This document shows, piece by piece, positions 1 through 12,178 of a DNA stretch of 34,733 nt; positions within the stretch are counted from its first letter, which is position 1; each line of letters opens with the position of its first letter. A model generated the notes under the pieces. That model ran no database searches. It had not been told where the DNA came from and saw only the letters and a program-made list of their open reading frames with translations. A program made the translations under genes and the position numbers. The DNA comes from Chloroflexota bacterium (GTDB lineage: Bacteria > Chloroflexota > Anaerolineae > Anaerolineales > Anaerolineaceae). The stretch spans positions 1-34,733 of the forward strand of contig JAKPNN010000038.1 in the NCBI GenBank assembly GCA_029548365.1, written 5' to 3'.

Positions 1-1355
1 TTATCAGTCCATGATGGCCAGATAGAAAATAAATTCAGCCCTTCGGGGCATTGAAACGGGTAGCCCCAATAAAGATCTCGGTCCGGTTTTACGAAGGGTG
101 AAATACAAAATAAGCCCTTCGGGGCATTAAAACTTCCCTCCACCACTTTCAGTATTTTCATCAGAAGCGGGGAACAGGTGAAATACAAAATAAGACCTTC
201 GGGGCATTGAAACTCTCCTTTTTCCTTTTCTAATATCTAAGTTTTTAAAACGGTGAAATACAAAGTAAGCCCTTCGGGGCATTGAAACGATGTTGATTAA
301 CATTAACACGGCGTGACCCTATGGCCAGGTGAAATACAAAGTAAGCCCTTCGGGGCATTGAAACGGGATTGGGATATGGTTATTTAGTGTAAGTAAAAGT
401 GTGGGGTGAAATACAAAATAAGCCCTTCGGGGCATTGAAACTGGTTCGAGCTCTGCTTCTTCGCCGTCTTGGTGTAGGTGTGGGCGTGGTGAAATACAAA
501 ATAAGCCCTTCGGGGCATTGAAACGCTGATATCTCTCCGATGAGTCGCAGCCCCTCGGAGGGGTGAAATACAAAATAAGCCCTTCGGGGCATTGAAACCT
601 GTTCCGTTGACGGTATTTAATAATTTGACTCTTTAGGTCACGGTGAAATACAAAATAAGCCCTTCGGGGCATTGAAACGTGTCGTGTTGGCGTTTAATGG
701 GAATGGGTTTCCCAGGGTGAAATACAAAATAAGCCCTTCGGGGCATTGAAACTTTGAAGCAATTCATTTGCTTCCATTTTATTTTTACTCCTGGTGAAAT
801 ACAAAATAAGCCCTTCGGGGCATTGAAACATCTTTCAGCGAGGCCATCGCTTGGCAATGTGCGCAGGGGTGAAATACAAAATAAGCCCTTCGGGGCATTG
901 AAACAGAGGTTGAGCGTCACGTATGGCTGCCATTGCTGAGGTGAAATACAAAATAAGCCCTTCGGGGCATTGAAACATTGGATAATTTTTGTCCATTTCT
1001 CTCCTTTCCTGTTTGGTGAAATACAAAATAAGCCCTTCGGGGCATTGAAACAGAGCTCCTGGTGGGAGAGTTCGGCCCAGCGCCCGGGGTGGTGAAATAC
1101 AAAATAAGCCCTTCGGGGCATTGAAACGCTTGTTTCAAGGTAGACGAATCTACCTTGGACTATTATTTCCAGGTGAAATACAAAATAAGCCCTTCGGGGC
1201 ATTGAAACTTGCACGCATTATTTTTGATGCGTCGAGCTCGTCGAGGTGAAATACAAAATAAGCCCTTCGGGGCATTGAAACGGTTTTGGCCCTTTTCGTA
1301 GGGCTAGATCGTGCTCGTGGTGAAATACAAAACAAGCCCTTCGGGGCATGGTATA
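1..1355 (+). CRISPR. CRISPR array 1 (18 repeats in view, truncated by the left window edge)
   Basis: There are 18 copies of a 37-bp repeat, beginning at 21, 97, 177, 252, 328, 405, 488, 562, 642, 716, 793, 868, 940, 1015, 1091, 1172, 1245 and 1319, separated by 17 unique spacers of 35-46 bp. Bases 1-20 look like the end of another spacer, so the array continues to the left. The repeat begins GGTGAAATAC, contains a GCCC-TTCG-GGGC hairpin and ends ATTGAAAC, the 3' motif that becomes the 8-nt crRNA handle in many type I and III systems. The last copy (1319-1355) has lost that 3' end, which marks the distal end and so rightward transcription. The copy at 21 has a different 5' half; those at 97, 177, 252 and 328 carry point changes. 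The subtype cannot be assigned because no cas operon is present. Confidence 0.98.
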
Positions 1356-1560
1356 GGTGATCCCGCTCGCTGCGCTCGGGGACTGTGTAGCCGATCCCGC
1401 TTCGCGAAGCAATCACGGTGCTCTGGGAGGGTATTTGGGCGTCTGCGCTCGGGGACTGCAAATCCAACTCCACTTGCTTCGCTCGGGAACTGCTCAGCAG
1501 ATAGCATAACGCTTCGTCCTGACGAATGTTTGTCCGTATGGAAAAAGCGAAAAAAACATC
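1356..1560 (+). repeat. Array 1 trailer with GC-rich internal repeats
   Basis: The 16-mer CTGCGCTCGGGGACTG occurs at 1370-1385 and 1443-1458, with a diverged copy (CTTCGCTCGGGAACTG) at 1477-1492. A 12-bp palindrome GCTTCGCGAAGC sits at 1399-1410. The flank from about 1493, including GCATAACGCTTCGTC, reappears in similar form after array 2 (around 3235-3250), so the two trailers are related. No open reading frame here looks like a real gene. Confidence 0.75.
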
Positions 1561-1599
1561 AATCCCTCGTACTTCGGCCCTCCCTCACTTGCCATTAAC

Positions 1600-1842
1600 C
1601 GGATCAGACTTTCCCAGTCGTCCTCTCCTTTAAAGAGCTTCGGCAGCCCGGTTCAGTACAGCGTTTTTGAATGCCTGCTGACCCATGAAGAAATAATCGA
1701 AATGAAAGGTCGGGTTAAAAGATTAATTCGCCCAAAAGCAGATCATGTGCGCTACTATCGACTGTGTAAAACGTGCAAAAGCAAAACGGAAGTGATGGGT
1801 CGGGTTGAGGTTTTGGCGGAAAAGGATGTGATCGTTGTTTAA
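1600..1842 (+). pseudogene. cas2: cas2 remnant (5'-truncated CRISPR adaptation nuclease)
   Basis: Frame 1600-1842 encodes about 80 residues that read as the C-terminal four fifths of Cas2. They include VQYSVFEC (from 1651), an internal VRYYRLC segment and the ending EKDVIVV. Cas2 pairs with Cas1 to integrate spacers and is usually about 90-95 residues, with an N-terminal YDI-type strand bearing the conserved Asp. That part is missing here. In this frame a stop lies at 1507-1509, and no ATG, GTG or TTG follows before VQYSVFEC, so a normal product is not possible. Upstream the frame runs into array 1 trailer sequence, placing a rearrangement junction near 1560-1600. Downstream lies the array 2 leader, the usual cas2-leader-array order. 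Confidence 0.85.
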
Positions 1843-2098
1843 TTTAATACAAGCTTTTCCAAGGATTCCGGGCAACACGGGGGGTAGTGAAGGAATTCAA
1901 GATGCCCGGAAAAATTGCGCTCTGACCCCCAGATGTGGCACTCAAAAATTTATTGAACCCCAATATATTGGCATTTGTTTAAATAATTTCCGGGCGAAAC
2001 AGGGTTTTTTAGCAAAACTAAATTGCCCGGAATGTGTAAATATCGCAAGATATAGGGAAAACTTAAAAAATTATGGTATAATACCGGTAGATGTTGCA
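1843..2098 (+). promoter_or_regulatory. CRISPR leader of array 2
   Basis: This AT-rich 256-bp stretch lies between the cas2 remnant and the first repeat of array 2, the normal leader position. It holds two inverted-repeat pairs built on CCGGGC. The first is TTCCGGGCA (1865-1873) with TGCCCGGAA (1902-1910). The second is TTCCGGGC (1988-1995) with GCCCGGAA (2025-2032). The loops are 28 and 29 nt. Such regularly placed motifs could be binding sites for adaptation proteins or a regulator; that role is inferred. Confidence 0.7.
2074..2082 (+). promoter_or_regulatory. Extended -10 promoter of array 2
   Basis: TGG followed by TATAAT (2077-2082) is an extended -10 element 16 bp before the first repeat at 2099, which would start transcription just upstream of the array. 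No convincing -35 is seen, which is common for extended -10 promoters. Confidence 0.65.
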
Positions 2099-3195
2099 GG
2101 TGAAATACAAAATAAGCCCTTCGGGGCATTGAAACTGGGGACTATTGCTGCGGATCGGGGCATACAACCCCGGTGAAATACAAAATAAGCCCTTCGGGGC
2201 ATTGAAACGATCAGAATCAGGATGCAGTGGAGAAGCATCTTGCTCCTGGTGAAATACAAAATAAGCCCTTCGGGGCATTGAAACAATAAGACTGGATGCG
2301 CCTTCCTCGTAGATGTACCCAGTGGTGAAATACAAAATAAGCCCTTCGGGGCATTGAAACACTACAATCAACGATAGTCGGGGGCAAAAGCTCCCAACTT
2401 GGTGAAATACAAAATAAGCCCTTCGGGGCATTGAAACACGACACTTTTAACGCTGTTCCAAAACTTTTGCCACGGTGAAATACAAAATAAGCCCTTCGGG
2501 GCATTGAAACCCTTCCGGAGCAAAATCTTTAGACACTACAAAACTCACTATGGATAGAAAATAAATTCAGCCCTTCGGGGCATTGAAACTCATAGCTCAT
2601 AGCATTGTGTCCTTTCGATAATAGATACGGTGAAATACAAAATAAGCCCTTCGGGGCATTGAAACACGCGATGGAAAAAGCGATAACGTCATCAGGCTTG
2701 TAACGGTGAAATACAAAATAAGCCCTTCGGGGCATTGAAACGCGAGCATATGTCTTCTATCTTCTCTAATATAGTTAAAAGGTGAAATACAAAATAAGCC
2801 CTTCGGGGCATTGAAACGCATTGACTGCCTCGATGAGTATCTGCCGATTTGCCCGGTGAAATACAAAATAAGCCCTTCGGGGCATTGAAACGCTACAAAC
2901 ATATTTTGCAACGTTGTCCCGAAGACCTGGTGAAATACAAAACAAGCCCTTCGGGGCATTGAAACCATGCCGTGGGGCTCTCGGCTTTTATAAATTATTC
3001 GTGACATAGGTGAAATACAAAATAAGCCCTTCGGGGCATTGAAACTTGTTTGAGGCGCTATCGTCATAGCACCCACACATCTACGGTGAAATACAAAATA
3101 AGCCCTTCGGGGCATTGAAACGAATTACAAGGGGTAGAATTAAAAATACCAAGACAATGGTGAAATACAAAATAAGCCCTTCGGGGCATGGTGTA
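2099..3195 (+). CRISPR. CRISPR array 2 (15 repeats, complete)
   Basis: There are 15 repeats of the same 37-bp family, starting at 2099, 2172, 2248, 2324, 2401, 2474, 2553, 2629, 2705, 2781, 2855, 2929, 3009, 3085 and 3159, with 14 unique spacers of 36-43 bp. The final repeat (3159-3195) keeps the hairpin but its 3' end changes to GGTGTAG, as at the end of array 1. The copy at 2553 carries the same alternative 5' half (GATAGAAAATAAATTCAG) as the repeat at 21; the copy at 2929 has one T-to-C change. By eye no spacer is shared between the arrays. The leader, promoter and decayed terminal repeat all indicate rightward transcription. Confidence 0.98.
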
Positions 3196-3536
3196 GCTGA
3201 TCCCGCTCGCTGCACTTGGGGACCGCTCAGCTGGTAGCATAACGCTTCGTCTTAACGAATAATTAAATAAATGGGAAAAGGCGAAAAGAATATAAAACCC
3301 CCAGTTTAATCATTCAACCCTTATGGCGGTTGGGCGAATGGTTAATCAAACAAAACCATTTAAATAAACTCAGACTCTGCTGCTTTCTCCGCCAACCTAC
3401 CCACCTAAACTGCCGGAAAGTTCGCTATCAAACAGGTCTCGGGAGATAAGAAAATTCCAGGCCCGGAAAATGGATAAACTTTGATCTACCTGTGATGTAT
3501 TTAAATAATCACTGTTTCCCTTAAGACTTAAATCTG
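3196..3536. other. Array 2 trailer and gene-free spacer
   Basis: The first ~95 bp resemble the array 1 trailer (GATCCCGCTCGCTGC at 3199-3213, then GCATAACGCTTCGTC near 3237-3251) but with only one copy of the GC-rich unit. The remaining ~240 bp are AT-rich with no convincing ORF. A short inverted repeat AATGGTT/AACCATT lies near 3340-3365. No obvious terminator was found for the minus-strand gene that ends at 3537. Confidence 0.6.
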
Positions 3537-3902
3537 CTAACCATTAAATGCATGATGAATTCCTCTATCCCCATCTTTTTGAATTTCATCATTGAATGAA
3601 TCCAGCATGGCTGCACCCTGGCGATATTGATAAGGCCACATGGATCGCAAATGGAACAAGGCGACCCGGTCTTGATCTTTAAGTTCTTGGGTAAGATCAT
3701 GCTGTTTACCCGGCATCGCGGACAGGTTCCCGTTAATGAAGGTGATTCCCCGCAATTCAGTGGGAAGATCGATTTCATCCAACAGGTCTTGCATTGTTGC
3801 ACCATCCGGTAGTTCAATCTTCAGTTGTGCAAAACCGGGTTGGGCATCTTCACCGGCATAGCTTGCCAACTCTCCGTAAAGCCATGTGTCAATCACAATC
3901 AT
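3537..3902 (-). CDS. MoaD/ThiS-like beta-grasp protein without a Gly-Gly tail
   Basis: This 121-residue product aligns over its first ~90 residues with the neighbouring 79-residue MoaD/ThiS-type protein: a short N-terminal strand, an ELPDGATMQDLLDEIDLP helix region, FINGNLS, and DQDRVALFHL where MoaD has its last strand. MoaD-type proteins end in Gly-Gly, which is adenylated and thiocarboxylated. Here the corresponding point continues as RSMWPYQYRQGAAM plus ~20 residues, so ordinary sulfur-carrier chemistry looks impossible unless the protein is processed. The start at 3902 follows AGGA 8 nt upstream and matches the family; an ATG at 3923 would add seven residues. It is the last gene after the oxidoreductase and the canonical MoaD-like gene, so a role in maturation or binding of that enzyme is inferred. 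Confidence 0.8.
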   Translation of the reverse strand: MIVIDTWLYGELASYAGEDAQPGFAQLKIELPDGATMQDLLDEIDLPTELRGITFINGNLSAMPGKQHDLTQELKDQDRVALFHLRSMWPYQYRQGAAMLDSFNDEIQKDGDRGIHHAFNG

Positions 3903-3966
3903 CTTATAATTCCTATCAATCATAAAATTACCTGTCTATTGCAAAGTAACCTGCCATCGAATGGCT

Positions 3967-4206
3967 TCATCCACCGCCGATGGGCGGGAACAATCCAACT
4001 TCGTCATCAGGTTCTAACACATAATCCCATTTACGTGCACGCCCGTTCACAAATTTTACACGGACGCTCTCTTCCGGAATGTCCAATTTGTCAAGCAGGG
4101 CATTCAACCGGGTGCCTTGATCGACTTCCATGACAAACGGCTTGGCGCTCTCACCGCCTGGGGCGTACATGCCCAATGTGGCAAACAATTTAACCCTGAC
4201 TCGCAT
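3967..4206 (-). CDS. MoaD/ThiS family sulfur-carrier protein
   Basis: A 79-residue beta-grasp, ubiquitin-like protein. It starts with the RVRVKLFATLG strand, has KFVNGRA in the middle and ends VGLFPPIGGG. The C-terminal Gly-Gly is the site that an E1-like MoeB/ThiF enzyme adenylates so it can carry sulfur for pterin dithiolene or thiamin synthesis. It lies about 160 nt downstream of the aldehyde ferredoxin oxidoreductase on the same strand, so it most likely serves molybdopterin/tungstopterin synthesis or that enzyme's maturation; ThiS-like use cannot be excluded. Two ATGs occur in tandem (4209 and 4206). The second is preferred because AAAGG lies 4 nt before it. A matching activating enzyme is encoded at 7738-8517. 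Confidence 0.85.
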   Translation of the reverse strand: MRVRVKLFATLGMYAPGGESAKPFVMEVDQGTRLNALLDKLDIPEESVRVKFVNGRARKWDYVLEPDDEVGLFPPIGGG

Positions 4207-4302
4207 CATCCCTTTGATTTGAATGAACGACTGGATGGAAGCTCAATATTAATATATCCACTCCACGATGATAACACGGATACTGCATCCAGGTTTAAAA
4301 CC

Positions 4303-4334
4303 GGGGCTGTCGTCTCCCTGGATCAGACAGCCCC
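4303..4334 (-). terminator. Intercistronic hairpin between the oxidoreductase and the MoaD-like gene
   Basis: Perfect 9-bp arms (GGGGCTGTC at 4303-4311 and GACAGCCCC at 4326-4334) flank a 14-nt loop. On the minus strand the sequence after it has only a short T-run (GGTTTTAA), so it may be a weak or partial terminator, or a 3'-end stabiliser that sets different levels of the two products. Confidence 0.5.
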
Positions 4335-4368
4335 TGACATTACCTTTATGAGCCTTCTACCAGATGTT

Positions 4369-6135
4369 CTACAGCTCACCATAAACTTTATCTAAAGTTT
4401 CCTCATCAATTTCAAAGACGACATTATGCGGTGGAAGCGGTTCTGTATGCATAAACTCTGGTATGCGGTCAGCCTGTTTCCCGATACCCGCTGCCTCGTT
4501 GAATTTGCGTTCAACACGCAGCACTTCGGTTCCTAATTCAAGGATGTCATCAGCCGTCCATTTCGTCCCCAGCACACCGTTGACCTCGTCGATCATCCCC
4601 TGGTAGCCACTGGCGATATCCAGGATGGCGAACGCAATGAACAGGCAATGCCCGCTGGTATCGATAAACGCCGTCGTGGCCTGGAAGGCCCGGCTGAGGG
4701 CAATTTTTCCTTCTTTTGAAAGCGGGTCCAGATCATCCATGACAGCAAGGATTTCCGGGGCGATCGTGTACCCTGCGGTGTGATCAGCGCCCATCGTGGA
4801 TGTGGCATAGGTTATCCCAATCCCTTTGACCGCGCGTGGCTCGTAGGCAGGCATTCCCTGACCTTTGACTGCAGGCGTTCGGACCACACCCAGAATCTTA
4901 CCAGCTGTGCCGGTGCCACTGCCCAAAATGCGACCGATTGGCTCGCCTTTACCCATCTTGTGCACCATCTCAATAGCAGCCTCGCCGTCTCCGAAGGGCA
5001 GCACGCCGGCTTCCATGGCAACACCGAGGGTCACCCCGGTTTCAATCGTGTCAAGGCCATAGCCGTTGCACAGTTTGACCAATTCAGAAATCGTATCCAG
5101 ATCGTCAATCTCAAGGTTGGCGCCAAACGCCCAATCTGATTCGTACTCCACGCAGGAAACATGCTCGCTTTTATCTTTTCGATACCAGGTATTCGAGCAG
5201 CGGATGATGCACCCAGGACTACAGGCGTGATTGTACCTTTCCTCACCCAATCGTTCTTTAACACCATCGAAAATAGCTTCGCCGGCGATCTTGGCAGCAT
5301 TTTCAAAGCGTCCTCTGGAGAAATTCCGGGTCGGTAAACCGCCTGCTTCATTCAAGATGTTAACCAGAACTGCCGTCCCGTAGGTATTGAGTCCGCCTTT
5401 AGGTTTGGTAATGGCATGTTCATTTAATGCCGCCGCCAACTTTTTGCGACCTTCATCAAACAGCTCCTTATCAGCGATTTCTACGCCCGGCGCCCCGGCG
5501 TCATCCAACAGGATAAATTTGAGTCCTTTGCTGCCCATCACTGAACCCAATCCACCCCGTCCTGCAAACCGGCTGGGATTCTGCGACATATCTTCGAAAA
5601 TCACACCAGCGTTGCCATAAGCATGTTCACTGGCCATACCAATCCCGCAAACAGAAACCCTTCGGCCCTCAAACTTTTTAAAAACCATGGGATAGACGTC
5701 ATACGCATCCTGCCCGGTAAATTCTGTGGCGTCAAACCATTCAAGCGTCGGTTGTCCTGTTTCTTTATCCAGGCCAATCACCAAACCCCAGAATTCTCCT
5801 TTATCCTCCGGTTGCCCCTCCACGATCAGGGCCTTGATGCGCATCCTGCCGAGCTTCCATGCCCAGGGTGTTCCCGCATTTGATTCCTTGATGCCCCCTG
5901 TCAGTGGCGATTTTCCGCCAACAGAGATGCGCGAGGATGACGGCGCAGACGTTCCCGTCACAAAGCCGGGTGAAAACACCAGCTTGTTGTTCGGGCCAAG
6001 GGGATGCGCCAGCGGGGGAACTTCATCGGCGATCAAGTTCGATGTGAGCGACCGTCCAGCCAGCTTTTTATATTTTTCCGGAACTTCTGTTAATTGATGC
6101 GTTCGATCTTTCATATTTATTCTTAAAAACCACAT
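4369..6135 (-). CDS. Aldehyde ferredoxin oxidoreductase family protein (tungsten/molybdenum bis-pterin enzyme)
   Basis: A 588-residue member of the AOR family, cytoplasmic iron-sulfur tungstoenzymes that oxidise aldehydes (or related substrates) to acids using ferredoxin. GRGGLGSVMGSKGLKFILL (~192-210) is the family pterin-binding region. Cys305, Cys309 and Cys313 in ACSPGCIIRC, with Cys497 in DTSGHCLF, are placed to bind the [4Fe-4S] cluster. The first three are spaced C-x3-C-x3-C rather than the C-x2-C-x3-C of Pyrococcus furiosus AOR. The start at 6135 is fixed by AGGAGG (6141-6146) with good spacing and by the family-like N-terminus MWFLRINMK. An open frame continues 50 codons upstream but would translate the leader terminator. 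Two MoaD-like genes follow. The substrate cannot be predicted. Confidence 0.93.
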   Translation of the reverse strand: MWFLRINMKDRTHQLTEVPEKYKKLAGRSLTSNLIADEVPPLAHPLGPNNKLVFSPGFVTGTSAPSSSRISVGGKSPLTGGIKESNAGTPWAWKLGRMRIKALIVEGQPEDKGEFWGLVIGLDKETGQPTLEWFDATEFTGQDAYDVYPMVFKKFEGRRVSVCGIGMASEHAYGNAGVIFEDMSQNPSRFAGRGGLGSVMGSKGLKFILLDDAGAPGVEIADKELFDEGRKKLAAALNEHAITKPKGGLNTYGTAVLVNILNEAGGLPTRNFSRGRFENAAKIAGEAIFDGVKERLGEERYNHACSPGCIIRCSNTWYRKDKSEHVSCVEYESDWAFGANLEIDDLDTISELVKLCNGYGLDTIETGVTLGVAMEAGVLPFGDGEAAIEMVHKMGKGEPIGRILGSGTGTAGKILGVVRTPAVKGQGMPAYEPRAVKGIGITYATSTMGADHTAGYTIAPEILAVMDDLDPLSKEGKIALSRAFQATTAFIDTSGHCLFIAFAILDIASGYQGMIDEVNGVLGTKWTADDILELGTEVLRVERKFNEAAGIGKQADRIPEFMHTEPLPPHNVVFEIDEETLDKVYGEL

Positions 6136-6831: not shown

Positions 6832-7458
6832 TTAAAAATCAAATAGGTGGTACAAATCCTTATAATACTCCAGAATGATGATGGTTGTGTTTGGAGGGAT
6901 CTGGTCAGCGATATCGTGCGCGGCAGCAGCAAAACTCAAGCGGGTCCATTCATAACCGACATTAGAATGGGTAACCTCTAAACTCAGTAAATATCCATCC
7001 ATGGCTTTCGAGATTTCTTGCATCTCCTCAATATCCTCAATACCGTCCATAAAATCCATAGGCTCAGGATGTGCCAAACCCAGGTATCTGATTCCATCAA
7101 CAATTTCATCATGTTCAACATCAAACCAGTAGAGCTGCTGTTTGTAATATTCAGCCAACTTTTCCCCGCTGGCATTGGGTACCGTATAAAATCGCCATGG
7201 ATTCATCGGTCCGCCAATCCCATCCACTTCAAGCAAAAATTCTGCTCCAGGGTAAACCATGTCTTCCATCCAAACGACTTTATCAGAAGGTGGCTGGCGC
7301 TCGCTTTCTGTGGGGGGATCGGCTGGGACATCAACCGCAGTGGATTCATCTTCCCTCACATTCTGCATGGGCTTGCCTGGGCTGCACGCTGATAACAGCA
7401 ATATAACCAGAAAACAAACCAAGATATTGACTTTGATGATAGGGGATTTATTCTTCAT
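6832..7458 (-). CDS. Putative lipoprotein of unknown function
   Basis: A 208-residue protein with a basic N-terminus, a hydrophobic stretch NILVCFLVILLL and the lipobox LLSAC, giving Cys25 as the likely lipidated residue; it would be anchored on the outer face of the membrane. Residues ~30-60 are Pro/Ser/Glu/Asp-rich, a typical linker. The remainder is acidic and soluble, with an EYYKQQLYWFDVEHDE segment, and resembles no enzyme family I recognise. The start at 7458 is chosen because it begins the signal peptide and AGGAG lies 8 nt upstream; a longer frame from 7530 would add 24 unlikely residues. It sits downstream of the ThiF-type gene on the same strand, but ~280 bp separate them, so co-transcription is uncertain. 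Confidence 0.8.
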   Translation of the reverse strand: MKNKSPIIKVNILVCFLVILLLSACSPGKPMQNVREDESTAVDVPADPPTESERQPPSDKVVWMEDMVYPGAEFLLEVDGIGGPMNPWRFYTVPNASGEKLAEYYKQQLYWFDVEHDEIVDGIRYLGLAHPEPMDFMDGIEDIEEMQEISKAMDGYLLSLEVTHSNVGYEWTRLSFAAAAHDIADQIPPNTTIIILEYYKDLYHLFDF

Positions 7459-7580
7459 TTCCGTTTCTCCTTTCAGGCATAGTGACATTTTTAGGAGGCG
7501 TGAGGATGTAAGGTTTACAAACAGCCTCAATGTTTTATACCAGTAACAGGGTTGATAGTCAATCGAAAGTGCGCTTTGTC

Positions 7581-7646
7581 ATTTAAACTTCAAAAGTGAA
7601 CTATTTAAACTTAAAAAGTAAACCGTTTAAAGCTGAAAAGTGAACC
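7581..7646. repeat. Three tandem 22-bp imperfect repeats
   Basis: Units at 7581-7602, 7603-7624 and 7625-7646 share the pattern TTTAAA-CTT-AAAAGTGAACC, and a fourth unit begins at 7647 (GTTAAAATC). The period equals two DNA helical turns. Similar AAGTGAAC-type iterations occur at the ends of some insertion sequences, so this may be an IS-end relic, or a multi-site binding region. No transposase is present. Confidence 0.75.
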
Positions 7647-7737
7647 GTTAAAATCATCACAAAAGATGCATGATTGGGTAGATAACTCAGAAACTGGAGG
7701 TATCGATGTCTCAACTTCACAAAAGGTTGGCGGACGA

Positions 7738-8517
7738 TCAAGTTCGCGCCTTTATTTCGGAGTTTTCTCCACAAACAGGGCAGCTTGGGTCTTTCAGGAC
7801 TTCGATGTGGTCAAATTCTGCGGTCAGACTGTTGATCAACACCAATTTCCCGCCCAGTGTTTCACCAATACCGAGAATAATTTTAAGGATCTCCGCAGCC
7901 TGCAGCAACCCTACCAACCCGGCCAACACCCCAAAAACACCGCTGTCAGCAGGTAGGGGGATGTGATCAGATGGCGGGGGGCTGCCAAACACACAGCGAT
8001 AACAGGGCCCGATCCGAGAATCAAACAACGCCATCTGCCCATCAAATCCTTGAATTGCGCCAAACACAAACGGCCGGGCAGTCCGCACGCACAGATCATT
8101 GATCAGGTAGCGCGTGGTCAGGTTATCCGTCCCATCCACAAGGATGTCAAAACCCTCAGCGATTTCTTTGGCGTTTTCAGATGTAAAAGCCACAGGGAAA
8201 ATATCAATCTGACAACAGGAGTTTAAGCCCGTTAAGCGCTGTTTGGCAGCCTCAACTTTCATTTCCCCTACCGTGTTGAAACTGTATAAAACCTGCCGCT
8301 GCAAATTTGACAGGCTCACCCGGTCAGGATCGACAATCCCGATTCGCCCGATGCCCGCTGCAGCTAGATAAAGACTGATGGGAGAGCCCAACCCACCAAC
8401 GCCGATGATCAACACCGACGCTTGCTTTAACTTTCTTTGACCGTCAATGCCAACCTGGGGCAGCAGGATCTGTTTTGAGTATCGGAGTAACTCTGATTGC
8501 GAAAAATCTGAAATCAT
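7738..8517 (-). CDS. MoeB/ThiF-family adenylyltransferase (E1-like)
   Basis: A 259-residue E1-like enzyme that uses ATP to adenylate the C-terminal Gly-Gly of a MoaD or ThiS protein. The N-terminus SELLRYSKQILLPQVG and the Rossmann motif GVGGLGSP (~39-46) are typical; DGTDNLTTRYLIND is the family's substrate and metal region. Two Cys pairs (CYRC and a C-terminal CPVC) form the structural zinc site. No rhodanese domain is attached. The start at 8517 is preferred: AAAGG lies 7 nt upstream and the N-terminus then matches the family, while an ATG at 8538 has no binding site. The GG-tailed protein at 3967-4206 is a likely partner. MoeB and ThiF cannot be told apart from sequence alone. Confidence 0.9.
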   Translation of the reverse strand: MISDFSQSELLRYSKQILLPQVGIDGQRKLKQASVLIIGVGGLGSPISLYLAAAGIGRIGIVDPDRVSLSNLQRQVLYSFNTVGEMKVEAAKQRLTGLNSCCQIDIFPVAFTSENAKEIAEGFDILVDGTDNLTTRYLINDLCVRTARPFVFGAIQGFDGQMALFDSRIGPCYRCVFGSPPPSDHIPLPADSGVFGVLAGLVGLLQAAEILKIILGIGETLGGKLVLINSLTAEFDHIEVLKDPSCPVCGENSEIKART

Positions 8518-8557
8518 TGCAGAACCTTTGCTGGTCATTCATTTAATGATGAATTTC

Positions 8558-8566
8558 AGTATATCA
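8558..8566 (-). promoter_or_regulatory. Extended -10 promoter of the MoeB/ThiF-type gene
   Basis: TGA-TATACT on the minus strand, 41 bp before the chosen start codon. The -35 region is not conserved. Confidence 0.5.
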
Positions 8567-8923
8567 TAAATGATTTATTGAGCACCACCAACACGCTTCT
8601 TAGTATATACGGCCTTCCTTCTTGGAACATGAATTACATTAATAACAAATTGTTTAGTAATTTATAAAACTATATCGTCCCCGCTTTAGGGGAAGCGCCG
8701 GGGGTAAAACCCGGAAAACAATTTCTGAAATGTGAAAATTCACCTGATAGAACAAATAAAAAGCAAGGCTGCCAAAACGCAATTTGCACGACTTAACCAG
8801 ATACTAACAATGGTCCTGGGCGTGCCCATCACCGCCTGGCAAGAGAGGACAAGGTCAGAAAGTGGGGTTACTAATTTGTTCGAAACTGACGTACTATTTT
8901 GGGTTTTTGATTCTGACATTCTA
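8567..8923. other. Gene-free interval with a compact structured motif at 8679-8714
   Basis: No credible gene. At 8679-8692 CCCC and GGGG can pair around GCTTTA, while GCTT (8683-8686) can pair with AAGC (8693-8696), allowing an H-type pseudoknot or two alternative hairpins. A second hairpin CCGGG (8698-8702) / CCCGG (8710-8714) follows at once. Function and strand are unknown. Confidence 0.5.
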
Positions 8924-8960
8924 TAAAAACAACGCCTCCGTTCTATGCAACGGAAGCGTT
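8924..8960 (-). terminator. Intrinsic terminator after tRNA-Gly
   Basis: A 12-bp hairpin with one G-U pair (8931-8942 and 8949-8960, loop of 6) is followed on the minus strand by GTTTTTAT. It lies 9 nt beyond the tRNA 3' end. Confidence 0.85.
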
Positions 8961-8968
8961 TGGTAAAA

Positions 8969-9040
8969 AGCGGGCGATGGGACTCGAACCCACGAATGTC
9001 AGCTTGGAAGGCTGATGCCTTACCACTTGGCGACGCCCGC
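8969..9040 (-). tRNA. tRNA-Gly (anticodon TCC)
   Basis: The minus strand folds as a 72-nt cloverleaf. The 7-bp acceptor stem is GCGGGCG/CGCCCGC with discriminator U. The D stem is GCC/GGC, the anticodon stem TCAGC/GCTGA has loop CTTCCAA, and the T arm contains GGTTCGAGTCC. Anticodon TCC reads GGA and, by wobble, other Gly codons. The 3' CCA is not encoded. The gene lies about 50 bp downstream of gatB and has its own terminator. Confidence 0.96.
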
Positions 9041-9092
9041 AAGGTTGTATTATTTTACGTCACTCAAATCATTTGGTCAATCAACTGCTCCC

Positions 9093-10535
9093 TCAACGCT
9101 TTCCCTGCAACGCTTTTTGCAGCAGCGCCCTTGTTTTTGCTGGGTCAGCCTGACCGCGTGTCTGGCGCATCACCTGACCCATAAACCAGCCAAACAAACC
9201 CTCCTTGCCGCCGCGGTAGGATTCAACCTCCTGCGGATGGGCAGCCAGAACAGCGTCAATTACCGATTGCAAGGCGCTATCATCGCTCACCTGAGACAGG
9301 CCCTCCGCTGCCACGATTGCCTGCGGCGGCTGGCCGCTTTGCTGCACCTTCACCAGCAAAGCCTTGCCCGTCGCGGCGTTGATGGTGCCCGCGTCGACCA
9401 GCCTGATCACCTCAGCCAGGTATTCGGGAGTGAGGGTCAGCGCATCGGCGCTGAGCCCCAGCTCATTTTGCATCCGCAACACTTCGTTCATAATCCAGTT
9501 CGAGAGGATCTTCGGGTCGGTCCCATATGCGGTTAAAGCTGCTTCATAATAGTCTGCGATTGGACGATCTGCGGTGAGGATATCGGCGTCATATTCTGGC
9601 AACTGGTAACGGGTCATAAAACGCAACTGTCGCTCAAGGGGGAGTTCAGGCAGGTTTTGAATCACAGCGTCGCGCCATTCGGATGTCAGTTCCAGGGGGA
9701 GCAGGTCCGGTTCCCTGAAGTAACGATAATCCGCTTCCGTCTCTTTAGAGCGCATTTTATTCAAACGTTGCCGGGTTTCATCCCAATCCAACGTCCAGGA
9801 TTCAACCTGCCCACCGGCCTGCACCAGCGATACCTGCCGTTCGATCTCCATGTTGATCGCCGCCCGTACAGCCTCGATCGAATTGACATTCTTGATCTCT
9901 GTCTTGGTGTTCAGATAGGTGCTGCCAGCCGTCCTGATCGACACGTTGGCATCACAGCGTAGATGGCCCTTTTCCATGTCAGCTTCGGAAACACCTAGCC
10001 AGCGTAAGAGCTGTCGCAGCCGGATCAGGTACTGCGCGGCTTCGTCAGCAGAGCGCAGGTCGGGTTCGGTCACCATTTCCACCAGGGGGACACCGCAGCG
10101 GTTGAAGTCCACCAGACGCTGCCCGCCTTCGTACTTGGTCTTACCGGCATCTTCTTCAAGGTGCAGCTTGGTGATGTTCACCCGTCTAACAAACCCACCC
10201 GGCATCGTCACATCCAGGTAACCGCCGTCACCCAGGGCAAGGTCAAATTGCGAGATCTGGTATCCCTTTGGCAAATCGGGGTAGAAATAATTCTTGCGGT
10301 CAAAATAGGAAACCAGCCGTATCTCGGCGTGCATCGCTGCCGCCAGCAGCGCACCCTTGTAAACCGCTGCTTCGTTTAACACGGGCAGCACACCCGGCAA
10401 ACCCGCACACACCGGGCAGATATTCGTGTTTGGCGGGTCTTGCCATGAATCGGCTTTGCAACTGCAAAAGATCTTGGTAACCGTGTTCAATTGAATATGG
10501 GTTTCCAGTCCGATGACGGCTTCAAAATCTGCCAT
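9093..10535 (-). CDS. gatB: Asp-tRNA(Asn)/Glu-tRNA(Gln) amidotransferase subunit B
   Basis: A 480-residue GatB, the subunit of GatCAB that binds misacylated tRNA and activates its Glu or Asp with ATP before ammonia from GatA is added. The N-terminal signature is EAVIGLETHIQL, followed by a zinc-type Cys set (FCSC and CPVC) and GLPGVLPVLN; DMEKGHLRCDANVSIR is the central conserved block. The C-terminal YqeY-like tail domain is present, ending in the family-typical GWFMGQVMRQTRGQADP. The start at 10535 follows AAGGA with good spacing and gives the usual N-terminus MADFEAVIGLE. An ATG overlapping the gatA stop at 10588-10586 would add 17-18 residues. It is third in the gatC-gatA-gatB operon. Confidence 0.97.
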   Translation of the reverse strand: MADFEAVIGLETHIQLNTVTKIFCSCKADSWQDPPNTNICPVCAGLPGVLPVLNEAAVYKGALLAAAMHAEIRLVSYFDRKNYFYPDLPKGYQISQFDLALGDGGYLDVTMPGGFVRRVNITKLHLEEDAGKTKYEGGQRLVDFNRCGVPLVEMVTEPDLRSADEAAQYLIRLRQLLRWLGVSEADMEKGHLRCDANVSIRTAGSTYLNTKTEIKNVNSIEAVRAAINMEIERQVSLVQAGGQVESWTLDWDETRQRLNKMRSKETEADYRYFREPDLLPLELTSEWRDAVIQNLPELPLERQLRFMTRYQLPEYDADILTADRPIADYYEAALTAYGTDPKILSNWIMNEVLRMQNELGLSADALTLTPEYLAEVIRLVDAGTINAATGKALLVKVQQSGQPPQAIVAAEGLSQVSDDSALQSVIDAVLAAHPQEVESYRGGKEGLFGWFMGQVMRQTRGQADPAKTRALLQKALQGKR

Positions 10536-10582
10536 AAGCCCATCCTTATTGCGGTGTTGATCAGGAACAGCGAGGGGGTTCA

Positions 10583-12178
10583 TCATTCCACCTCCGCCAG
10601 CACGCACGGTTTCACAGCCCGCCAATCGGCATCCGCAGTCGCCTGCTCGAAGGCATATCCCGCCCGAAACAGGGTCGCTTCGGCAAAATCGGGTCCAATC
10701 AATTGCAGACCCATCGGCAGTCCCTCCGCTGAAAGGCCGCCCGGGATCGAGAGCGCCGGCACACCGGCGTGGTTGGCAGACACCGTCAACTGGTCAGAAT
10801 ACTGCATTAACGTCGAATCGCCGTAAAAATCGCCCATTTTAAAGGCCGGGGTAGGCGCTGTAGGCGTCAGCAGGACATCCAGCCGATATGGCCCATCCGG
10901 ATCGAACGCGGTTTCAAAATCTGCCCGGATCATGCTGCGCGCCTGGAGTGCACGCTGGAAATACTGCAGGCTGAGCTGCCCGCCGCTCATGTACATCCCC
11001 ATCAATACACGCAGCTTGGGTTCCAAGCCAAAGCCCTCCGCGCGGGTCAGCCGGTACAACTCGGCCAAATCACCACCGCTTGCCCGGGCACGGTAGCCGT
11101 ATTTAACCCCGTCAAAACGGTGCAGGTTGGAAGATGCCTCAACCCGGCTGATGACAAAATACGCCGGTATTCCATAAATGCTGTTGGGCATGGGAACGTT
11201 TTCTACAATCTCCGCCCCTTCAGCCGCCAAAGTTTCAGCGGCGCGCAGCGTCATGTTACGGATTTCAGCGGGCAGGTCTTCCATAATCGTTTCGCCAGTA
11301 TCCGGGTCAGGGTAGGAAATCTGCAGATAATCCTTAGAAAGCCCAATGCGCATGCCTTTCACGCCCCGGTCTATACCTGCCAGGTAATCCGGCACAGGAA
11401 GCCTGACCGCCGTGCTATCGCGAGTGTCGGCGCCCGCCATCACCGAGAGCATCAGGGCTGCATCGCGCACGTTGCGCGCCAGGGGTCCCGGGCAGTCCAG
11501 GGAAGAGGCAAAGGCGATCACTCCATAGCGCGAGATGCGCCCATAGGTCGGCTTGAGACCCACCACGCCGCAATACGCTGCTGGCTGACGGATGGATCCA
11601 CCCGTATCCGTCCCCACCGAAAGGCACCCCTGCCCCGAAGCCACAGCCGCAGCAGACCCCCCGGAAGAACCGCCCGGCACCCGTGTCAGGTCCCAGGGAT
11701 TGCGGGTCGTGGGTTTAAACGCCGAAGATTCGTTCGAAGAGCCATAAGCGAACTCGTCCATGTTGACCTTCCCCAACACCACCGCACCGGCATCCTCAAG
11801 GCGCTCGATCGCGGTGGCGGTATAAGGTGCCACGAAATTCGATAATATGCGTGATGCTGCCGTGGTAGGCACACCCTTCAGGCAGAAGAGGTCCTTGATG
11901 GTAATCGGTACGCCTGCCAGCGCGCCGGCGTCTTCTCCGGAGCTAATCCGGGCATCCACCCGTTCAGCCTTCTGGCGCGCCCGGTCAGCCGTCAGGGTGA
12001 TGAAAGCGTGTACCTTGGTTTGATCCTCTTGTGTAAGTGGGCCGTAATCCAGCGCACCCGGCCTCCCATCCACCGCAGCAATGCGTTCCAGGGCTGCATC
12101 CAGCACGTCAACTGCAGCCAGCTCACCTCGTTGTATTTTATGGGCAATATCAAAAGCAGATTGATCTGTCAGGGACAT
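10583..12178 (-). CDS. gatA: Asp-tRNA(Asn)/Glu-tRNA(Gln) amidotransferase subunit A
   Basis: A 531-residue GatA, the amidase-signature glutaminase that releases ammonia for tRNA-dependent Gln and Asn synthesis. The catalytic Ser-cisSer-Lys triad is visible: Lys95 in GVPITIKDLF, Ser171 in PGGSSGGSAAA and Ser195 in GTDTGGSIRQPA. It is somewhat longer than the usual ~485 residues, mainly by an insert around residues 30-60 and in the central part. The ATG at 12178 is chosen; a TTG at 12187, adjoining the gatC stop, is an alternative that adds three residues. It is tightly linked between gatC (5 bp upstream) and gatB. The operon suggests that the organism lacks GlnRS and/or AsnRS. Confidence 0.97.
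   Translation of the reverse strand: MSLTDQSAFDIAHKIQRGELAAVDVLDAALERIAAVDGRPGALDYGPLTQEDQTKVHAFITLTADRARQKAERVDARISSGEDAGALAGVPITIKDLFCLKGVPTTAASRILSNFVAPYTATAIERLEDAGAVVLGKVNMDEFAYGSSNESSAFKPTTRNPWDLTRVPGGSSGGSAAAVASGQGCLSVGTDTGGSIRQPAAYCGVVGLKPTYGRISRYGVIAFASSLDCPGPLARNVRDAALMLSVMAGADTRDSTAVRLPVPDYLAGIDRGVKGMRIGLSKDYLQISYPDPDTGETIMEDLPAEIRNMTLRAAETLAAEGAEIVENVPMPNSIYGIPAYFVISRVEASSNLHRFDGVKYGYRARASGGDLAELYRLTRAEGFGLEPKLRVLMGMYMSGGQLSLQYFQRALQARSMIRADFETAFDPDGPYRLDVLLTPTAPTPAFKMGDFYGDSTLMQYSDQLTVSANHAGVPALSIPGGLSAEGLPMGLQLIGPDFAEATLFRAGYAFEQATADADWRAVKPCVLAEVE

Follow-up and report, generated by a model that had tools for sequence, protein, structure and literature searches.

In the assembled genome of an Anaerolineaceae bacterium, the trailer of one CRISPR array is joined to the middle of a cas2 gene. 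The joint lies in the window analysed here, which is the whole of contig C31 (34,733 bases); the genome assembly comprises 48 contigs, totals 1.65 Mb and is 71% complete. The plus strand of the window reads array 1, trailer, cas2 fragment, leader, array 2 and trailer, in this order. It may be that two separate events are responsible, a copying of leader-array-trailer units and, after it, a deletion that made the trailer-cas2 joint; we give this reading a probability of about one half.

Array 1 (21-1355) runs off the left end of the contig and shows 17 spacers and 18 repeats of 37 bases, and array 2 (2099-3195) has 14 spacers and 15 repeats. Both have the regular repeats and the unique spacers of like length (35-46 bases) of a CRISPR array. 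The repeat, GGTGAAATACAAAATAAGCCCTTCGGGGCATTGAAAC with few variants, is the same in both arrays, and, as the initial annotation had noted, both end in the same decayed copy (1319-1355 and 3159-3195), which finishes in ...GGGGCATGGT(A/G)TA in place of ...GGGGCATTGAAAC. No match of either repeat type of this genome was found among viral contigs, and array repeats occur nowhere in the 1.65 Mb assembly outside C31 and a second contig, C23.

The array on contig C23 (5,711 bases) lies on its minus strand and belongs to a third unit of the same kind. Its leader is homologous to window positions 1875-2098 (69% identity) and its trailer to 1388-1609 (70% identity); it has 13 spacers, and its terminal repeat is decayed as in arrays 1 and 2 (...GGGGCATGGTATAGGTGAT). 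The 3′ half of its repeats is that of the window repeats, but the 5′ half is different (GATAGAAAATGAATTCAG). The contig stops 225 bases before the array, and the first inverted repeat of the leader is cut off there. Because arrays 1, 2 and C23 have homologous trailers, and arrays 2 and C23 homologous leaders as well, leader, array and trailer are shown by homology to travel together and to have been copied as units in this lineage. No spacer is common to the three arrays (17 + 14 + 13 compared), as had been remarked at the outset for the two in the window; the only match is a 38-base spacer that occurs twice within the C23 array (L030 4778-4946; A3_8 and A3_10), with one other spacer between the copies. 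An identical variant repeat, with the common 3′ half and the 5′ half GATAGAAAATAAATTCAG, is found once in array 1 (21-57) and once in array 2 (2553-2589) and is close to the C23 repeat type, which suggests an exchange from array to array by way of that common half.

The trailer of array 1 (1356-1613) has three recognizable parts, at 1359-1383, 1470-1566 and 1575-1609, whereas the trailer of array 2 (3196-3300) is paralogous to 1356-1383 and 1470-1566. The trailer motifs that had been noticed in both arrays are real, amounting to 26 bases at 92% and 98 columns at 74% identity. The first part, with its copy at 3199-3223, is a dispersed palindromic element present at 13 places in the assembly at 3 mismatches or fewer, two of them in the two trailers; a reversed control pattern gave zero places, and the element itself gave zero in three other genomes of the family. 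Dispersed palindromic elements also lie at array trailers in another genome of the family, G095 (C4 and C7), at 6 of 10 places. The second part is an array-specific core whose own-genome matches are only those in the trailers of array 2 and C23. Its 98 sites differ at 25 positions between arrays 1 and 2, at 20 between array 1 and C23 and at 26 between array 2 and C23, and the pairing of array 1 with C23 has a weak bootstrap value of 0.75. The third, distal part matches the C23 trailer over 35 bases (88.6% identity, E 2e-10), whereas the stretch 1560-1640 has no counterpart at 3290-3450 beyond array 2 (best E 0.73). The repeats group arrays 1 and 2 against C23 and the distal trailer groups array 1 with C23, and when arrays 1 and 2 are considered as each other's closest copies, the repeats would answer yes and the distal trailer no.

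The cas2 fragment (1630-1842) runs in an open frame from approximately residue 26 to the end and the stop codon. The stretch 1606-1785 matches positions 14-73 of 74 of PF09827 at 51.5 bits (cut-off 23.8), positions 25-94 of 96 of TIGR01573 are matched at 43.2 bits (cut-off 24.5), and the best solved relative, 4qr0, aligns from its own residue 29. About 26 N-terminal residues are missing, including the conserved YD(I), and the last 70 codons remain. No ATG, GTG or TTG opens the frame upstream, the first such codon being an internal ATG at 1702, and the gene is thus incomplete; 5 of 22 conserved Cas2 columns (Y, D, I, R, R) fall in the missing part, and the N-terminal strand is absent. The initial annotation was therefore right to describe, between trailer 1 and leader 2, a C-terminal Cas2 fragment without a start codon, since the profiles score above their cut-offs and the frame is unopened. 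Its assignment of 1600-1842 to Cas2 holds except for the start: 1575-1609 is trailer, clear Cas2 similarity begins near 1630, and the junction lies at approximately 1610-1630, with 1614-1629 assigned to neither. An intact Cas2 with an unusual start was ruled out because there is no start codon, and a decayed Cas2 N-terminus at 1567-1613 was ruled out because homology to C23 marks 35 of these bases as trailer. A second Cas2, including any Cas2 5′ part, was not found in the assembly (71% complete), nor was any Cas1, Cas6 or RAMP protein, nor an active adaptation module of cas1 and intact cas2. A search of the literature for truncated cas2 found no papers, and a search for array-with-trailer duplication and orphan found none.

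Of the columns with 75% conservation or more in 113 other Cas2 rows, the fragment covers 17 and keeps all of them; it contains no stop, and a profile built from those 113 rows without the fragment ranks it above 75 of 114 sequences. In a simulation of neutral decay (20000 runs per level, substitutions without indels), the probability of keeping 17 of 17 columns and no stop was 0.26 at 3% change, 0.11 at 5%, 0.045 at 7%, 0.010 at 10% and 0.0027 at 12.4%; half of the divergence between trailers 1 and 2, which differ at ~25% of core sites, is ~12.8%. Because the fragment is undecayed while the trailer cores differ to this extent, cas2 was probably cut after the units had been copied. The earlier judgement that the event is old thus applies to the trailers, with 25 of 98 core sites different, and probably not to the cut. 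Trailers may also have been swapped later between arrays, and such swaps would uncouple the trailer divergence from the date of the break in cas2; the variant repeats at 21 and 2553 and the conflict of repeats with distal trailer both hint at exchange by way of the common 3′ half.

Among related Cas2 loci, 100 of 109 scored as having cas1 within 400 bases; these loci are not independent, as L034 and L069 come from the same genome and L035 and L073 probably do so. Of the nine flagged as lacking cas1, two (L067 and L082) stand at the end of a contig and two others (L056 and L129) have an adjoining cas1 after all; the rest are L034 and L069, from one genome, and L127, L130 and L141, two of these three with a cas1 farther off in the locus. 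Since such loci normally run cas1-cas2-leader-array, the most natural interpretation of the fragment is that it formed the end of one. In the same genus, 15 other genomes, eight of them at least 90% complete, yielded no Cas1, and the Cas2 fragment as query had no match in these 15; in one of them (G027), Cas6 and RAMP matches adjoin an array. Loss of adaptation genes looks common in the genus.

The two events can be envisaged as follows. In an old step, a leader-array-trailer unit was copied in the lineage, so that arrays 1, 2 and C23 descend from one array; common descent is shown by the same decayed terminal repeat, the homologous trailers and the homology of the two visible leaders. Before a younger step, array 1 would have preceded a cas1-cas2 pair serving array 2, a placement proposed because cas1-cas2-leader-array is usual in relatives, and in that step a deletion would have joined trailer 1 near position 1613 to cas2 at about residue 26, with loss of the cas2 start and of cas1. 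Thereafter, the locus would no longer write spacers with its own genes, and the arrays may still be transcribed from their leaders. The undecayed state of the fragment, the existence of three paralogous units and the likeness of distal trailer 1 to C23 and not to array 2 all argue for the deletion, as do the frequency of cas1 beside cas2 in relatives and the lack of Cas1 in the assembly and in the genus. Arrays of one repeat on both sides of adaptation genes do exist, as in L132, where one repeat type flanks a cas2 and a long ORF carrying cas1, and this locus may serve by analogy as a weaker precedent. Against the deletion, the missing cas1 is weak evidence by itself in an assembly 71% complete, recombination may have moved trailers from one array to another, and the pairing of array 1 with C23 on the trailer core is weak and is opposed by the repeats. 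No relative with the undeleted order, array 1-cas1-cas2-leader-array 2, was found in this lineage.

The same order could also have arisen in one step, as first proposed, if an unequal exchange duplicated cas2-leader-array-trailer in such a way that the trailer of copy 1 came to abut the interior of the cas2 of copy 2. The copying of the unit, seen in arrays 1, 2 and C23, and the joining of a trailer to mid-cas2 survive from that proposal, whereas a single old exchange between arrays 1 and 2 is not well supported. Such an exchange predicts a counterpart of trailer 1 beyond array 2 up to the joint, whereas the homology of the two trailers ends before the distal part; this would count against it unless the flank of array 2 changed later. 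The cas2 fragment is also in too good a state to date from an event of the age that the trailers imply, and the arrays have no spacer in common. Their identical repeat sequence speaks for the exchange. The mechanism does occur in nature. A contig of 143.7 kb from Deltaproteobacteria CR9063A (L090) reads, over 6884-10964, cas1-cas2-leader-array-two ORFs-second cas2-second leader-array, with the same array repeat, 90.9% identity over the 276 bases of the second cas2 and 96.5% over the 226 bases of the second leader. This is a true cas2-leader-array duplication, the only one in 80 loci examined; a second Cas2 merely adjoins the first in three others. The two ORFs between the copies are presumably an antitoxin and a PIN-type toxin. 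UBA1415, a relative within the family, has a lone intact cas2 followed by a leader and a short array (L069 9857-10800), with no cas1 found in the 9.8 kb upstream of cas2, and its genome (G073) has one Cas1 only, on another contig beside another Cas2. In G095, further array pieces and a second leader (98 bases, 85.7%) come after cas6-leader-array-trailer, forming tandem trailer-leader-array units, and one unit of 116 bases has a copy at 99% on another contig. With these precedents on one side and the distal trailer and the state of cas2 on the other, a one-step duplication is unlikely but deserves more credit than the remaining alternatives.

An insertion of the array-1 unit, leader, array and trailer, into cas2 would have split the gene and left its 5′ part to the left of the leader of array 1. 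The C23 unit, which sits elsewhere in the genome without a cas gene on its visible side and whose trailer is the closest to the distal part of trailer 1, is in keeping with such mobility, but the Cas2 5′ part was not found in the assembly, in which the contig starts inside array 1, and we regard the insertion as improbable. Least probable of all is a chimera in which a contig bearing array 1 was wrongly joined to cas2: the assembly is metagenome-like (48 contigs), a contig end falls inside array 1, and the 37-base repeats are common to both arrays, but a search of the genome with 1356-2098 gave no second copy of 1610-1874 and thus no repeat for a mis-join. The deletion after copying is accordingly still the reading that we prefer.

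Single arrays of G095 (L190, L191 and L192) mix two repeat types that differ in the 5′ half, in orders such as AABBBBBBBABAB; if only the leader-proximal repeat were copied, such a pattern would be hard to account for.

The leader of array 2 (1843-2098), which has a TATAAT at 2077-2082, is identified as a CRISPR leader by homology to the leaders of C23, UBA1415, G095 and G027. At the DNA level, the leader was found in its own genome only, apart from short matches within repeats in 2 of 146 other genomes of the family. No Rfam family matched window positions 1-6000, and promoter and terminator consensus scans gave no excess over shuffles and no terminator. The leader contains two inverted repeats, at 1866-1911 (arms TTCCGGGCA at 1866 and TGCCCGGAA at 1903) and, 122 bases after it, at 1988-2032 (TTCCGGGC at 1988 and GCCCGGAA at 2025), and the four arms agree with one another. 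In an unselected test for this layout (a single 8-letter word recurring as forward, reverse, forward and then reverse arm, with at most one mismatch), 12 of 75 leaders between cas2 and an array were positive, two genomes being counted twice among the 12 (one surely, one probably); none of 375 shuffles was positive, nor any of 75 stretches of equal length taken upstream of cas2; the 75 leaders share the dependence described above for the 109 loci. By phylum, assigned from record titles for L063-L142 and from the family search for L034-L062, the positives were 10 of 31 leaders of Chloroflexota and 2 of 44 others, and with 21 of the 31 negative the layout is not general.

Doubled inverted repeats were noted at window 1866-2032 and in L069, L191, L195, L063-L075 and L141. 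In 13 leaders that were measured, picked partly for already showing the pattern, the arms had at most two mismatches in total in 11, three in L073 and five in L063, and the forward arms were 122-124 bases apart in seven, 112-113 in three, and 198, 235 and 247 in the rest. The arm words vary among lineages (TTCCGGGC, TGCGAGCA, AAAAACCG, TTTTCGAG, TGGCGACG, TTTACGAG, CGAGCATC and others). Were pairing between the arms of each inverted repeat the only constraint, the two would not stay alike, whereas a shared binding factor would keep them so. We therefore tentatively suggest, with less confidence than the deletion, a class of leaders, mainly in Chloroflexota, with two inverted repeats ~122 bases apart (also 112-113, or about twice the distance), in which the four arms carry one word per leader and another word in other lineages. 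The identity of the arms would point to a putative sequence-specific DNA-binding factor of drifting specificity, perhaps active in spacer integration or leader regulation, and leader-array-trailer units would multiply as modules, sometimes with cas2. Earlier publication of the layout is possible, and titles and the beginnings of abstracts showed nothing of the kind. To our knowledge, CRISPR adaptation in Chloroflexota has been little studied. According to a 2025 preprint (PMC12259127), integration in type I-F involves contacts of Cas2 with conserved inverted-repeat motifs in the leader. The doubled inverted repeat offers a specific candidate site at which binding of a leader factor could be tested.

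The locus is a clear case in which CRISPR arrays descend one from another, each as a complete leader-array-trailer unit, and the adaptation gene next to them bears a scar that can be dated; it allows array copying and adaptation-gene loss, which look like one event in the raw sequence, to be separated as two processes. The portions of PMC2886076 and PMC8047081 drawn on here describe arrays that survive next to cas genes lost through partial deletion, terminal repeats that have decayed, and array deletions and duplications through repeat recombination. The window resembles such degraded loci in its partial cas loss, surviving arrays and decayed terminal repeats; those portions treat repeats and spacers or whole cas operons, whereas the window presents leader-array-trailer units and a trailer-cas2 joint. 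L063 and Ornatilinea L073, both Anaerolineae, have a Cas2 of the same kind (57% and 49% identity, respectively) followed by a leader and an array, as in the window, but they possess cas1 and an intact cas2, of which the window keeps only the last 70 codons; among relatives in culture, Ornatilinea apprima has an intact locus. The UBA1415 locus, like the window, has no cas1 beside cas2, a homologous leader and a related repeat, but its cas2 is intact and no second array lies upstream. In L090, a second cas2, leader and array stand co-oriented behind a first array, as in the window; unlike in the window, cas1-cas2 precedes the first array, the copies are 91-96% identical with two ORFs between them, and the frame of the second cas2 runs its full length, whereas the cas2 of the window is a 3′ part.
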